IMG/VR virus record: IMGVR_UViG_3300027375_000003
Coordinates: 26,334-90,333 of that record
DNA: 64,000 nt
Source of the DNA: a virus
Reading direction: 5' to 3' (one strand)
Part shown: piece after piece, positions 13,398 to 61,625 of the stretch
Position numbering within the stretch: position 1 is the first letter of the stretch
How the letters are laid out: each line of letters starts with the position of its first letter
The notes under the pieces: model-generated
The model's input: only the letters and a program-made list of their open reading frames with translations
Database searches by the model: none
Told to the model about the DNA's origin: nothing
Program-made: the position numbers and the translations under genes

Positions 13398-13437
13398 TGT
13401 ACTTATATAACACTTTGCATAAGATATTATTGCAAGT
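13398..13437 (-). promoter_or_regulatory. TTGCAA...TGTTAT bipartite promoter motif, minus strand
   Basis: On the minus strand GAACTTGCAATAA is followed 17 bases after TTGCAA by TGTTAT and then ATAAGTAC. This is the only copy on this strand; it points at the small gene starting at 13374. It matches the plus-strand copies in sequence, spacing and distance to the start codon. Confidence 0.7.
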
Positions 13438-17403: not shown

Positions 17404-17526
17404 ATGATTAAGCATCTTTTAATTTGTTTAGCTTTATTCTTTTTAAGTAAAGAGGCATTATTTATATATCTAGTAGGTTTGCTTGGCTCTTATATAGAAA
17501 GCCACCATGAATCTAATGCACCATAA
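17404..17526 (+). CDS. Possible small membrane protein (40 aa)
   Basis: A short ORF starts at the base after the stop of the gene at 16566. It encodes one strongly hydrophobic segment (LLICLALFFLSK, then LFIYLVGLLG), typical of a phage small membrane protein or holin-like peptide. There is no clear ribosome-binding sequence, and its 3' end overlaps the minus-strand gene at 17490 by 37 bases, so it may be a chance reading. Translation could be by re-initiation after the preceding stop. Confidence 0.3.
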   Translation: MIKHLLICLALFFLSKEALFIYLVGLLGSYIESHHESNAP

Positions 17527-17834
17527 GGTATCTGTTCATATATCTCAACAGGCAGTGAGCCAACACATTTATAGGAAAACCATTCACCTTTTTCTCTAAA
17601 CTTTTTCAATTCTTTATGCAGTGGTCTTTCTACATTGCCATATCCTTTAAAGACATGAATCAATCTTAATTCTACAGCATTGCCTGTCTGTAATTGCTTT
17701 ATACGAGCATCACAATCTTTAGCTACACCTATTTTAATAGAACCTGATCCTTTAGCTTGGATCAAATACATATCCTGTTCGGAATAAGGCACTTTTATCA
17801 AATCTTGTGTAAAAGGTAAGTAAAGTTTAATCAA
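17490..17834 (-). CDS. T5orf172/MUG113-type GIY-YIG-related protein (114 aa)
   Basis: The sequence shows the short version of the GIY-YIG nuclease fold: a first strand with MYLIQAKGSGSIKIGVA (residues 22-38), Arg44 in the DARIKQLQTG helix, HVFKGYGNVERPLHKEL with Glu69, and KGEWF at 82-86. The usual pairs of Tyr in GIY and YIG are replaced by YLI and KIG, as in MUG113/T5orf172 proteins, which are common in phages but poorly characterised. The likely start is the TTG at 17834, with CAGGTG five bases before it; the next ATG at residue 22 would cut into the domain. It stands alone on this strand between two plus-strand operons, as inserted morons often do. Confidence 0.7.
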   Translation of the reverse strand: MIKLYLPFTQDLIKVPYSEQDMYLIQAKGSGSIKIGVAKDCDARIKQLQTGNAVELRLIHVFKGYGNVERPLHKELKKFREKGEWFSYKCVGSLPVEIYEQIPYGALDSWWLSI

Positions 17835-17878: not shown

Positions 17879-17918
17879 ACTTGCAATAAATCTTAATCTT
17901 AAGTGTTTAAGTAGTATC
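17879..17918 (+). promoter_or_regulatory. TTGCAA...TGTTTA bipartite promoter motif
   Basis: ACTTGCAATAA (TTGCAA at 17881-17886), a 17-base spacer and TGTTTA at 17904-17909, followed by AGTAGTATCAA. It lies about 40 bases before the gene at 17952 and so should drive that gene and ligA behind it. Confidence 0.75.
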
Positions 17919-18365: not shown

Positions 18366-20198
18366 ATGAAAATGTTATCTATCACAGAACTTGAAAATCT
18401 AGTTAAGAAACACAATTCTCTTTATTGGGATTTGAATGCACCTGAAATCTCTGATGTAGAGTATGATGCACTTGTAGAGCAATTAAGAGCAGTTGCACCT
18501 ACATCACCTGTCTTAAGCAGTTTAGGCACATTCGCAGAAATTGGTATGGAAGTACAACATTCTAAACCTATGTTGTCATTAGACAAGTGTTATAATGAAG
18601 ATGACTTAAAGAAATGGTCTAGGTCTTTTTCATCTTATGTATGCACACCTAAAATTGATGGTATGGCTTGCAGTATCAAATATGAAAATGGCATTTTGGT
18701 ACAAGGTGCAACAAGAGGTGATGGCAATATAGGTGAAGATATTACACAAAACATTATCAACATCGTACCAAAGCAAATTAGCATAACAACACCTGTAGAA
18801 ATTCGTGGTGAATTATATATGCCTATTTCTGTATTTAATACTCAAAAGGATATCTTTGCAAATCCTAGAAATGCAGTAGCAGGTATTATTAAGAGAAAAG
18901 ATGGCAATGTACAAGGCATCAAGTTTCTTGCATACGATTTCATAGGCAGTGAGTTTAATCTATTTTCTGATAAAATAGATGCACTTAAAGCATTAGGTTT
19001 TGAAATCCCATTTTATACTGTCTTTAATGGTATTGATCATCTACAAGCAGGTTATGATCATATCCTAAACATTAAAGATAGTTTGGACTATGAACTAGAT
19101 GGTGTTGTTTATCGTGTAAATGATAATCAAGCATATGAAAATGCAGGATATACATCACATCACCCTAAAGGAGCAATAGCATATAAATTTCAAGGTGAGT
19201 TTGGTACAACTAAACTTTTAAATGTTGAATGGCAAATTAGCAGATCAGGTATCTTAACACCTGTAGCAATCGTCCAACCTGTGAAATTAAGTGGTGCAAT
19301 GGTAGGCAGGATTACTTTGCATCATGCAGGTATGATTAAGACAAAAGGTTTAACTCTTAATGCAGATGTTTTGGCAATAAGAAGAGGTGGTGTTATTCCA
19401 CACCTTGAAAAAGTCATTAATGCAGGTGATACATCTATTGAAATTCCTGTATGTTGTCCATTCTGTTCATCAGCAACAGAACAAAAAGAAGATTTTCTAT
19501 ATTGCACAGCGAATTGTAGTTTATCTACAAAGGTAAGTTACTTTATGGAAAAAGTAGGTATTGAAGGCATAGGCAATGTATGGATTGAAAAGTTAATAGA
19601 AGAAGGTCTTGTCAATAACTTTGCTGATCTATATAGACTTAAAAGAGAAGATTTATTAAAGATTGAAAGTGTTGGTGAAACTAGAGCAGATAATTGGTTA
19701 TCTAGCATTACCAAAAGCACTAGATTATCTTTAGATAAGTTTTTAATATCTCTTGGCATTCACAGTTTAGGTAAAAAAGCAAGTGATGTTTTAACAAGTC
19801 AATTTAAAACCTTAGATGCAGTTTTAGCATTAAAGACATCTGATATTGAAAAACTAGATGGTTTTGGCAGTATCACAGCACAGGATATTGTTAATGGTCT
19901 TAAAGCAAATGTAAATGTTATTACTGATCTTTTGCAATATATCCAAATTGACAATGGCAGTGAAAAGACAGGTATCTTTAAAAACAAATCATTTCTTTTC
20001 ACAGGTACATTGACTACCTTAAAGAGAAATGATGCAGAAGCAAAGGTATTAGAGTTAGGTGGCAATGTAGCATCATCAGTAAGCAAGAATTTAAGTTATC
20101 TTGTAGCAGGTGAAAAAGCTGGCAGTAAACTAGATAAAGCAAATGCACTTGGCATTAAGGTTATCACAGAACAAGAATTTTTAAATATGTGTAAATGA
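18366..20198 (+). CDS. ligA: NAD-dependent DNA ligase
   Basis: A complete 610-residue LigA, slightly shorter than the usual 670. It seals nicks in DNA using NAD. The N-terminal Ia-like region includes LYWDLNAPEISDVEYDAL. The adenylation Lys is Lys96 in KIDG, followed by RGELYMP, the AVAGIIKRKDG segment and LDGVVYRV. Then come the OB domain, a four-Cys zinc finger around residues 363-384 (CPFC and CTANC), helix-hairpin-helix repeats (GIGNVWIEKL, SVGETRADNWL, LDGFGSITAQDIV) and a C-terminal BRCT domain with LFTGTL and LGGNVASSVSKNLSYLVAG. All key elements look intact. GAAAGGACGA precedes the ATG. Most phage ligases are ATP-dependent, so this resembles a bacterial acquisition, shared with some large phages. 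Confidence 0.95.
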   Translation: MKMLSITELENLVKKHNSLYWDLNAPEISDVEYDALVEQLRAVAPTSPVLSSLGTFAEIGMEVQHSKPMLSLDKCYNEDDLKKWSRSFSSYVCTPKIDGMACSIKYENGILVQGATRGDGNIGEDITQNIINIVPKQISITTPVEIRGELYMPISVFNTQKDIFANPRNAVAGIIKRKDGNVQGIKFLAYDFIGSEFNLFSDKIDALKALGFEIPFYTVFNGIDHLQAGYDHILNIKDSLDYELDGVVYRVNDNQAYENAGYTSHHPKGAIAYKFQGEFGTTKLLNVEWQISRSGILTPVAIVQPVKLSGAMVGRITLHHAGMIKTKGLTLNADVLAIRRGGVIPHLEKVINAGDTSIEIPVCCPFCSSATEQKEDFLYCTANCSLSTKVSYFMEKVGIEGIGNVWIEKLIEEGLVNNFADLYRLKREDLLKIESVGETRADNWLSSITKSTRLSLDKFLISLGIHSLGKKASDVLTSQFKTLDAVLALKTSDIEKLDGFGSITAQDIVNGLKANVNVITDLLQYIQIDNGSEKTGIFKNKSFLFTGTLTTLKRNDAEAKVLELGGNVASSVSKNLSYLVAGEKAGSKLDKANALGIKVITEQEFLNMCK

Positions 20199-20240
20199 AC
20201 TTGCAATAAAAATTTATCTTTAGTGTTTAGGTATATGTAG
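20198..20240 (+). promoter_or_regulatory. TTGCAA...TGTTTA bipartite promoter motif
   Basis: It starts at the last base of the ligA stop codon: GAACTTGCAATAA (TTGCAA 20201-20206), 17 bases, TGTTTA 20224-20229, then GGTATATGTAGACAA. The leader after it contains AGTTCTTTGAGAACT, a small hairpin also partly kept behind the motif at 61057. It serves the SspB-like gene. Confidence 0.75.
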
Positions 20241-20289
20241 ACAATAAGTTCTTTGAGAACTCAAACTTCAATAACGAAGGAAAATACAA

Positions 20290-20718
20290 ATGGATAGAAA
20301 GCAAATCCTTTTAGATCACTTAGCAATAGCAAAAACCACTGTTGCAATTAATCCTACCTATGAAGGTGTTAAATTACCAAAAGATTTAATGAGTAAAGAT
20401 AATGTACGATTAAATCTTTCAAATCACTTTTCATATCCTATGCAGTTTAGAGATGATAAAGTCGTGGCAACTTTATCCTTTGGTGGTGTACCTTTTGAAT
20501 GTCATATTCCATACAATGCAATCTTTGCAGTTTTCATTGCAGGTGCATCACTTGAAGATGCAGTTCTTTTTGATGATGCAATTCCTGATTCCACAAAGAG
20601 ATTGATTCCTTTAATTGAATTAGGTGATATTGATGCAATGAAATTTATTTCAGATTTACAAAAACAATTTGAAAGAGATGATATTACTGTTGGTCAATAT
20701 AATGACAAACCACAATGA
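20290..20718 (+). CDS. SspB-like ClpXP adaptor protein
   Basis: The 142 residues align with stringent starvation protein B, the adaptor that hands ssrA-tagged proteins to the ClpXP protease. The signature is clear: GVKLP at 26-30, LNLSNHF at 41-47, the strand pair ending FGGVP at 64-68, and HIPYNAIFAVF at 72-82, matching GV-P, LNIAP, FGGIP and VPLAAVLAIY in E. coli SspB; LSFGGVP is also the alphaproteobacterial form. SspB ends in a short ClpX-binding peptide (RPALRVV in E. coli); the tail here (after residue 110) shows no such peptide. The protein could therefore bind tagged substrates without delivering them, or use a different tail. AACGAAGGAAAATACAA precedes ATG, and the gene has its own promoter motif. 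Confidence 0.8.
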   Translation: MDRKQILLDHLAIAKTTVAINPTYEGVKLPKDLMSKDNVRLNLSNHFSYPMQFRDDKVVATLSFGGVPFECHIPYNAIFAVFIAGASLEDAVLFDDAIPDSTKRLIPLIELGDIDAMKFISDLQKQFERDDITVGQYNDKPQ

Positions 20719-20719
20719 T

Positions 20720-20744
20720 CATTTACTTTGTTACCTTGTAAATG
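20720..20744. terminator. Possible bidirectional hairpin between convergent genes
   Basis: CATTTAC (20720-20726) and GTAAATG (20738-20744) could pair across an 11-base loop, lying between the ends of the SspB-like gene and the minus-strand 1714-residue gene. The stem is weak and there is no long T-run, so a terminator role is only a suggestion. Confidence 0.25.
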
Positions 20745-39830: not shown

Positions 39831-39870
39831 ACTTGCAATAAGTTTTAATCTTAAGTGTTTATCTATTACA
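39831..39870 (+). promoter_or_regulatory. TTGCAA...TGTTTA bipartite promoter motif
   Basis: GAACTTGCAATAA (TTGCAA 39833-39838), 17 bases, TGTTTA 39856-39861, then TCTATTACAACAA. It lies in the divergent gap between the minus-strand tail operon and the small-gene island beginning at 39895. Confidence 0.75.
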
Positions 39871-40639: not shown

Positions 40640-40680
40640 AACTTGCAATAAACCTTTAGAGCAAGTGTTTAGGTAGTATC
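40640..40680 (+). promoter_or_regulatory. TTGCAA...TGTTTA bipartite promoter motif
   Basis: GAACTTGCAATAA (TTGCAA 40643-40648), 17 bases, TGTTTA 40666-40671, then GGTAGTATCAA. It begins just after the stop of the 46-residue gene and precedes the two repeat-module genes at 40707 and 41146. Confidence 0.75.
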
Positions 40681-43551: not shown

Positions 43552-43594
43552 AACTTGCAATGAAAGCTAATAGACAAGTGTTATATATATGTAA
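43552..43594 (+). promoter_or_regulatory. TTGCAA...TGTTAT promoter motif (18-base spacer)
   Basis: GAACTTGCAATGA (TTGCAA 43555-43560), 18 bases, TGTTAT 43579-43584, then ATATATGTAAG. It is in the divergent gap between 43487 (-) and 43638 (+) and points at the latter. Confidence 0.65.
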
Positions 43595-61052: not shown

Positions 61053-61095
61053 GAACTTGCAATTTAAATTGAGCATAAGTGTTTATATGATACGA
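61053..61095 (+). promoter_or_regulatory. TTGCAA...TGTTTA bipartite promoter motif
   Basis: ATGAACTTGCAAT (TTGCAA 61057-61062), 17 bases, TGTTTA 61080-61085, then TATGATACGAAA. The leader contains AAGCTCTTTGAAAACTC, partly shared with the leader of the SspB-like gene. It lies in the divergent gap upstream of 61185. Confidence 0.75.
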
Positions 61096-61584: not shown

Positions 61585-61625
61585 AACTTGCAATAAGTTC
61601 TGATCTTAAGTGTTTACCTATTACC
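61585..61625 (+). promoter_or_regulatory. TTGCAA...TGTTTA bipartite promoter motif
   Basis: ATGAACTTGCAATAA (TTGCAA 61588-61593), 17 bases, TGTTTA 61611-61616, then CCTATTACCAAA. It lies directly after the stop of the gene at 61185 and before the TTG-start gene at 61656. Confidence 0.75.

Follow-up and report, generated by a model that had tools for sequence, protein, structure and literature searches.

The window analysed here, a stretch of 64,000 nucleotides taken from a virus record of 90,333 bases (G000, bases 26334-90333), carries a gene for an SspB homologue that has kept the SspB core and has no canonical ClpX-docking (XB) tail. SspB sets which ssrA-tagged and regulatory proteins are destroyed first by ClpXP; judging from its sequence, a tail-less phage version may hide or divert tagged proteins rather than deliver them. 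The reading best supported by our results, to which we give a probability of roughly 0.4, is that of a decoy which keeps SspB-type substrates undelivered, uncoupled from ClpX, its main rival being an adaptor fitted with a different docking end.

The gene and its surroundings

The sspB-like gene, at 20290-20718 on the plus strand, is real (Table 1). Its protein was found with 100% identity in two further contigs and its tail is nearly colinear with that of a 64% identical relative, which makes a sequencing frameshift unlikely. A frameshift or assembly error concealing an XB tail was likewise considered and rejected, no LRVV-like end being present near the stop in either of the other frames. The neighbours of the gene are the DNA ligase gene and a large convergent ORF of 1714 aa that ends at 20731, with no proteolysis genes. 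A small MUG113/T5orf172 gene, which we take to be GIY-YIG-like, lies upstream of the ligase at 17490-17834 on the minus strand. In the jumbo Pseudomonas phage pPa_SNUABM_DT01 (L265, 524-1030) the SspB gene is one gene away from a NAD-dependent DNA ligase, an arrangement to be compared with the ligase/sspB adjacency of the window.

Table 1. Features of the sspB-like gene and of the DNA upstream of it (window coordinates).
Feature	Position	Strand	Basis or remark
NAD-dependent DNA ligase	18366..20198	+	Directly upstream of the sspB-like gene; PF01653 E 2.6e-56, phrog_3869 E 1.2e-161
Repeated promoter-like element CTTGCAA-N-AGTGTTTA	20200..20229	+	Ends 60 nt upstream of the sspB-like ATG
Ribosome-binding-site-like GAAGGA	20276..20281	+	Sequence reading; about 8 nt upstream of the sspB-like ATG
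sspB-like gene	20290..20718	+	ATG ORF, 142 aa, stop at 20716-20718; sequence and fold evidence
SspB fold core (SspB peptide-binding domain), residues 1-95	20290..20574	+	pLDDT, VIA-align, 73% identity to G003
Variable linker, residues 96-114	20575..20631	+	22% identical to G003
Conserved non-XB C-terminal segment, residues 115-135 (DAMKFISDLQKQFERDDITVG)	20632..20694	+	67% identical to G003
Last residues 136-142 (QYNDKPQ), place of the XB motif in other SspBs	20695..20715	+	No XB pattern in the last 16 residues

The preliminary description had given the gene a regulon promoter of its own. A repeated element does stand ahead of the ATG: the pattern CTTGCAA-N(11-16)-AGTGTTWW occurs at eight sites in the window, where 0.03 would be expected (13407-13436, 17880-17909, 20200-20229, 39832-39861, 40642-40671, 43554-43584, 61056-61085 and 61587-61616), and seven of these sites lie 32-99 nt upstream of ATG ORFs of at least 50 aa. 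The promoter role itself is what we infer from these sequences, and it is plausible that the sspB-like gene belongs to a regulon. Sixteen scanned stretches of three related records described below (G001, G002 and G003) held 33 copies of the element, some of them the same sites as those of the window or of each other, with none in the four stretches scanned from G003. By eye, the element was not seen within 130 nt upstream of the SspB start in G003 or in the syntenic gene G004a, and a diverged version lies upstream of the paralogue G004b.

The phage and its relatives

Two overlapping records extend the view of this phage. G002 (195,689 bases) matches G000 at 99.76-100%, and G001 (146,708 bases) runs 30,138 bases past the end of G002, thus giving a phage of at least about 226 kb. 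Among its relatives, G003 (72,399 bases) encodes the 64% identical SspB, and G004 (316,221 bases), with a DNA polymerase 90% and a ligase 84% identical to those of the window phage, has two SspB-like genes, one near the ligase gene (G004a, 176 aa) and one elsewhere (G004b, 135 aa). The phage relatives of the window SspB are therefore one that is 64% identical and two in a single 316-kb phage, and together with the window protein they form the four-member family used below. Three scans of viral contigs, each with a single relative, returned nothing but the query, and three more, run with the window protein or with alignments of the family, gave no further members, by a method that reaches close relatives. 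The closest named relative by polymerase (47.5%) is a 485-kb uncultured phage that carries no annotation; neither SspB nor ClpP was found in it.

An SspB core by sequence and fold

The signature motifs reported earlier are found as LNLSN (41-45), FGGVP (64-68) and IPYNAI (73-78). Pfam SspB matched the window protein with an E value of 4.9e-5 (23.8 bits) and was the sole Pfam family at E <= 1. This match falls below the curated score of PF04386 (23.8 vs 27 bits), as do the matches in five of the 117 control genomes with SspB, and the best of the NCBIfam PRK11798-type models reached 29.2 vs 191. When phmmer was run against the PDB, all chains at E <= 1 were SspB, with that of Haemophilus influenzae the best (E 2.1e-4); the one titled merely "hypothetical protein" is the Caulobacter SspB ortholog 2qas. 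With a profile of the four-member family the match to H. influenzae SspB improved to 1.1e-6, and only one of the 14 matches at E <= 1 was not an SspB (0.78); the same profile matched cellular SspBs with E values down to 3e-25 in a small custom database. The PHROG SspB profile phrog_8945 gave an E of 0.033 (residues 18-82). Moreover, the near-invariant bacterial residues F76 (117/117), P86 (116/117) and G78 (101/117) are kept in all four family members.

A structure model was built with AlphaFold2 on the four-member alignment. Its mean pLDDT was 71.1, with residues 1-100 at 72-91 per ten-residue block and the remainder at 56 or less. Foldseek against the PDB gave 19 matches at E <= 0.001, every one an SspB or a relative of it from Caulobacter or Agrobacterium; the match that followed these stood at 0.62. 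In VIA-align, the 1-96 range of the model superposed on 1ou8_A with a Z of 12.3 (rmsd 2.3, 93 aligned residues), the best unrelated chain scoring 5.9; resemblances to Hfq, WYL and YaeO (Z under 6) were set aside as a common small-barrel arrangement. In the viral structure library the best match was A0A6J5NMQ6, the "SspB" of an uncultured phage (E 2.3e-10), followed by phiKZ-like and other phage proteins. SspB homodimerises through its N-terminal helix, and a helix at 3-13 is predicted in the monomer model.

Residues 1-96 are thus SspB by sequence and by fold. The homology had been proposed from the letters, to be given up if no structural match appeared; Pfam, the PDB sequence matches, a Foldseek search returning SspB only and the VIA-align score now support it, with a clear structural match. 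In the comparison with G003, residues 1-95 showed dN 0.18, dS 0.66 and dN/dS of about 0.27, so that by these substitution estimates the core is under purifying selection.

The substrate groove was approached through the positions changed in PDB variants (1twb, 1zsz_C), marked in our alignments. The two positions that we take to belong to the groove, Y45 and A74 of E. coli SspB, are both Leu in the window protein. Loss of ssrA binding through a mutated groove (Y45 to L, A74 to L) was entertained and withdrawn, Leu being the most frequent residue in bacteria at both positions (58 and 65 of 117); as read from the alignments, the groove residues are uninformative and neither favour nor oppose peptide binding.

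A C-terminus devoid of the ClpX-docking motif

The C-terminus of the window protein (...RDDITVGQYNDKPQ) matches neither of the two strict XB patterns, LRVVK-type and VVSLDxFRKK-type, that we sought within the last 16 residues. None of the four family members does, whereas one or the other is present in 113 of the 117 bacterial SspBs (115 when judged by eye) and in 14 of the 18 further SspBs taken from phage records; as background, 5 of 120 ORFs matched in G002 (six-frame translation, minimum 150 aa). A first, looser pattern had wrongly scored G004b (LKKLKS) as positive, and the stricter ones were substituted for it. The absence of a canonical docking tail claimed in the preliminary description is therefore borne out, and it is unusual by comparison with the controls.

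The bacterial control consisted of 120 genomes drawn evenly from the phylum of E. coli, 117 of which had SspB, and all 117 proteins were read. Their tails comprised 83 of LRVVK-type and 30 of VVSLDxFRKK-type, the four misses being two LKRVK ends and two proteins (L212 and L219) with no clear terminal motif. The phage control held 18 SspBs, about one per kind: 13 were chosen among the matches listed by tblastn (79 phage records at E <= 0.05, 99 at E <= 10), and five belong to phages that the fold search had pointed to. Of the 18, that from "Acinetobacter phage MD-2021a" adjoins sspA and resembles host DNA; leaving that record out, the phage count becomes 13 of 17. The phage SspBs that miss the strict patterns are those of LucasX, Vibrio D69, Vibrio 150E35-1 and 201phi2-1, with variants visible by eye in LucasX, 150E35-1 and 201phi2-1.

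Kinship among the SspBs was judged by profile ranking. The 21 cellular SspBs ranking highest with the family profile all have an LRVVK-type tail (E values from 3e-25 to 8e-19, the set being small and custom-made), with E. coli SspB at 5e-6. Since these nearest cellular proteins all keep XB, the sequences make it likely, although not certain, that the tail was lost or replaced within the phage lineage. L219, lacking a clear terminal XB, ranks 22nd for the family profile, second for G003 and fourth for G004b, a closeness by which the tail was possibly already absent in the donor. Both L219 and L212 are among the twelve best matches of at least two family members.

An internal motif resembling xVI[DE]GG was seen past residue 90 in 33 of the 117 bacterial SspBs, 32 of which also have a terminal XB. 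It resembles the LTVIKGG end of phiKZ-like SspBs and is possibly a second docking site.

Candidate partners in proteolysis

A ClpP-like peptidase is encoded in G001 and G004; genes for it in this phage group lie at L006, 1391-2047, and L041, 1498-2118, both on the minus strand. Its Ser, His and Asp stretches read as in ClpP, and a nearby gene we take to be MazG-like. The peptidase was not found in G000, G002 and G003, records that need not cover that region. Such a phage peptidase could join host ClpX or ClpA.

As for unfoldases, AAA_2 gave no match in the fragment records G001-G003. PF00004 (AAA) gave six matches in G001, G002 and G004. Of the three that were read, one is DnaX-like and two are MoxR-like; a fourth corresponds in G001 to one of these, and the other two are weak (E about 0.003). 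No Clp-type unfoldase was found with AAA_2 or among the PF00004 matches read. Nor was a tmRNA found in G000-G003, which are fragment records. A phage-encoded Clp unfoldase or tmRNA as the partner of this SspB was therefore dropped within this scope, and any target tag or machine would most likely be that of the host.

Possible modes of action

If the protein is a decoy, its substrate-binding core, of proteobacterial SspB origin, would have become uncoupled from ClpX by loss or replacement of its docking tail. The core would still bind SspB-type peptide tags, on tmRNA/ssrA-tagged proteins or on a RseA/MucA-like regulator, and the bound proteins would not be delivered, the XB tail for the ClpX N-domain being gone. 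The net effect would be to keep tagged proteins from ClpXP during infection, in competition with host SspB. The core fold and the absence of the canonical tail from the window protein and its three relatives argue for a decoy, and the core is under purifying selection, whereas the conservation of residues 115-135 in the sole close pair is something that a pure decoy would not need. In the available part of a study of Pseudomonas aeruginosa SspB, changing tail residues 128-135 to alanine weakened ClpX binding, the Kd going from 27 nM to 179 nM (PMC13251409). The XB tail matters by this measure, but the mutant still binds ClpX at 179 nM, and an SspB without its tail may keep some coupling.

The segment at 115-135 bears directly on the main rival of the decoy, namely that the core takes up substrates and a new end docks elsewhere (on ClpX at another site, on a different AAA+ protease of the host or on a phage protein), sending them to a different destination, a reading that we hold tentatively. 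Between 39 and 78 residues follow the core in the family, so that no tail is simply trimmed. Identity to G003 is 73% in the core, 22% in the linker and 67% in the end, which mirrors the SspB layout of core, disordered linker and XB; the contrast between linker and end comes from one pair, with boundaries chosen after viewing the alignment (Fisher p 0.0096). Seen in the sequence, a core followed by a variable linker and a conserved non-XB end is an adaptor layout equally compatible with a replaced tail and with a decoy. The two SspB genes of G004 carry quite different tails, and the same 316-kb genome also encodes the ClpP-like peptidase. On the other side, the single close pair was divided post hoc, dS is also low in 115-135 (0.32 vs 0.66 in the core), and the tail, including a helix at 116-127, is modelled with low confidence (48 and 49 as block means). 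The idea that the tails of the window protein, G004a and G004b share a helix lacks support, 61 of 120 shuffles scoring as well at width 13; at width 10 the best block was a different stretch, reached by 5 of 120 shuffles, to which we attach no claim.

A bolder proposal, and a rather doubtful one, is that the phage lineage swapped its ClpX tail for another docking module (115-135) and so turned SspB into the adaptor of a different machine, perhaps in combination with the phage ClpP-like peptidase and with the differing paralogue tails of the 316-kb relative. Were this so, the swap would amount to a natural modular rewiring of tagged-protein destruction in infected cells.

That the protein is an ordinary ClpXP adaptor, with a docking motif diverged past recognition or with docking through the core alone, seems unlikely. 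An overlooked tail had been named from the start as what could undo the claim of absence: no canonical XB was found in this frame or the others, although ITVG at 132-135 may represent a docking motif in degenerate form. This hydrophobic-x-hydrophobic stretch near the end recurs as IVIG in G003. Other phage SspBs also miss the strict patterns (4 of 18, three with visible variants), and the tail-mutated P. aeruginosa protein retains some ClpX binding in the part of that study available. However, ITVG and IVIG are preceded by an acidic DD and lack the second hydrophobic residue of L-x-V-V, whereas most LRVVK-type tails are preceded, by eye, by a basic, Pro or Gly-His context, and nothing like ITVG is present in G004b. 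Use of the SspB fold in a peptide-binding or structural phage role unrelated to ClpXP, as the low identity to known SspBs (18-24% in structural alignments) and the position between DNA ligase and the large convergent ORF, away from proteolysis genes, might suggest, is most improbable given that F76, P86 and G78 are kept in 4/4 members and the profile matches cellular SspBs down to E 3e-25.

Comparison with known systems

If the decoy reading is right, the outcome would be shared with that of IraP, IraD and IraM, the ClpXP anti-adaptors that act on RssB by binding the adaptor: a substrate is spared from ClpXP. The window protein is itself a tail-less adaptor fold. Such a lineage offers a direct test of whether phages protect or re-route tagged proteins, and a possible natural module for targeted degradation.

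Bacterial SspBs (PF04386/PRK11798; E. coli, H. influenzae 1OU8, C. crescentus 2QAS) resemble the window protein in the fold of residues 1-96 (Z 10.5-12.3) and in the LN-S, FGG and IP-x-x-A-I motifs. The window protein differs from them in having neither an LRVVK-type nor a VVSLDxFRKK-type end, in a structural identity of 18-24% and in a score under the Pfam gathering threshold. A host SspB is present in a table in the available part of a study on Churi gp335 (PMC11849849).

In the open-licence PMC literature we found no paper on a phage SspB lacking the ClpX tail. An SspB in a large phage genome has been described as gp18 of Pseudomonas phage pf16; the portion of that report available to us states that its authors found no tmRNA, that they already propose competitive inhibition by gp18, at RseA, and that what they stress is a deleted acidic stretch of the linker, not a missing tail (PMC5587285). 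Unlike the window protein, gp18 has an intact XB-like end (PTLRVVK), and in the part that matched, its identity to E. coli SspB is 53%.

SspB homologues are also present in jumbo phages, among them Erwinia phage RAY gp039, the SspB-like protein of Ea35-70 and phiKZ gp232. For RAY gp039 a diffuse cytoplasmic location, outside the phage nucleus, is reported (PMC10299810). PHIKZ232 was one of six proteins in a test of association with the shell, most of which were diffuse outside it, and is not named SspB in the available part of that paper (PMC10449902). In our searches phiKZ gp232 (AF399011, 229329-229625) and its phiKZ-like orthologues matched E. coli SspB with an E of about 4e-7; fnug_270 (L254, 1171-2079) is annotated as an orthologue of phiKZ gp232, and genes of this type are called hypothetical in most records among the matches listed. 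XB-like ends are present in the Ea35-70 protein (TLTVVK) and in the fnug gp232 orthologue (PKLTVIKGGKK), unlike in the window protein. Phage SspBs were thus already known from pf16 and RAY, with phiKZ gp232 another that has an XB-like tail, and that of the window is not the first. Most of the phage SspBs read here keep the ClpX tail and so look like working adaptors; the window lineage, with its core and no such tail, is one in which the two halves of the adaptor have been parted naturally.
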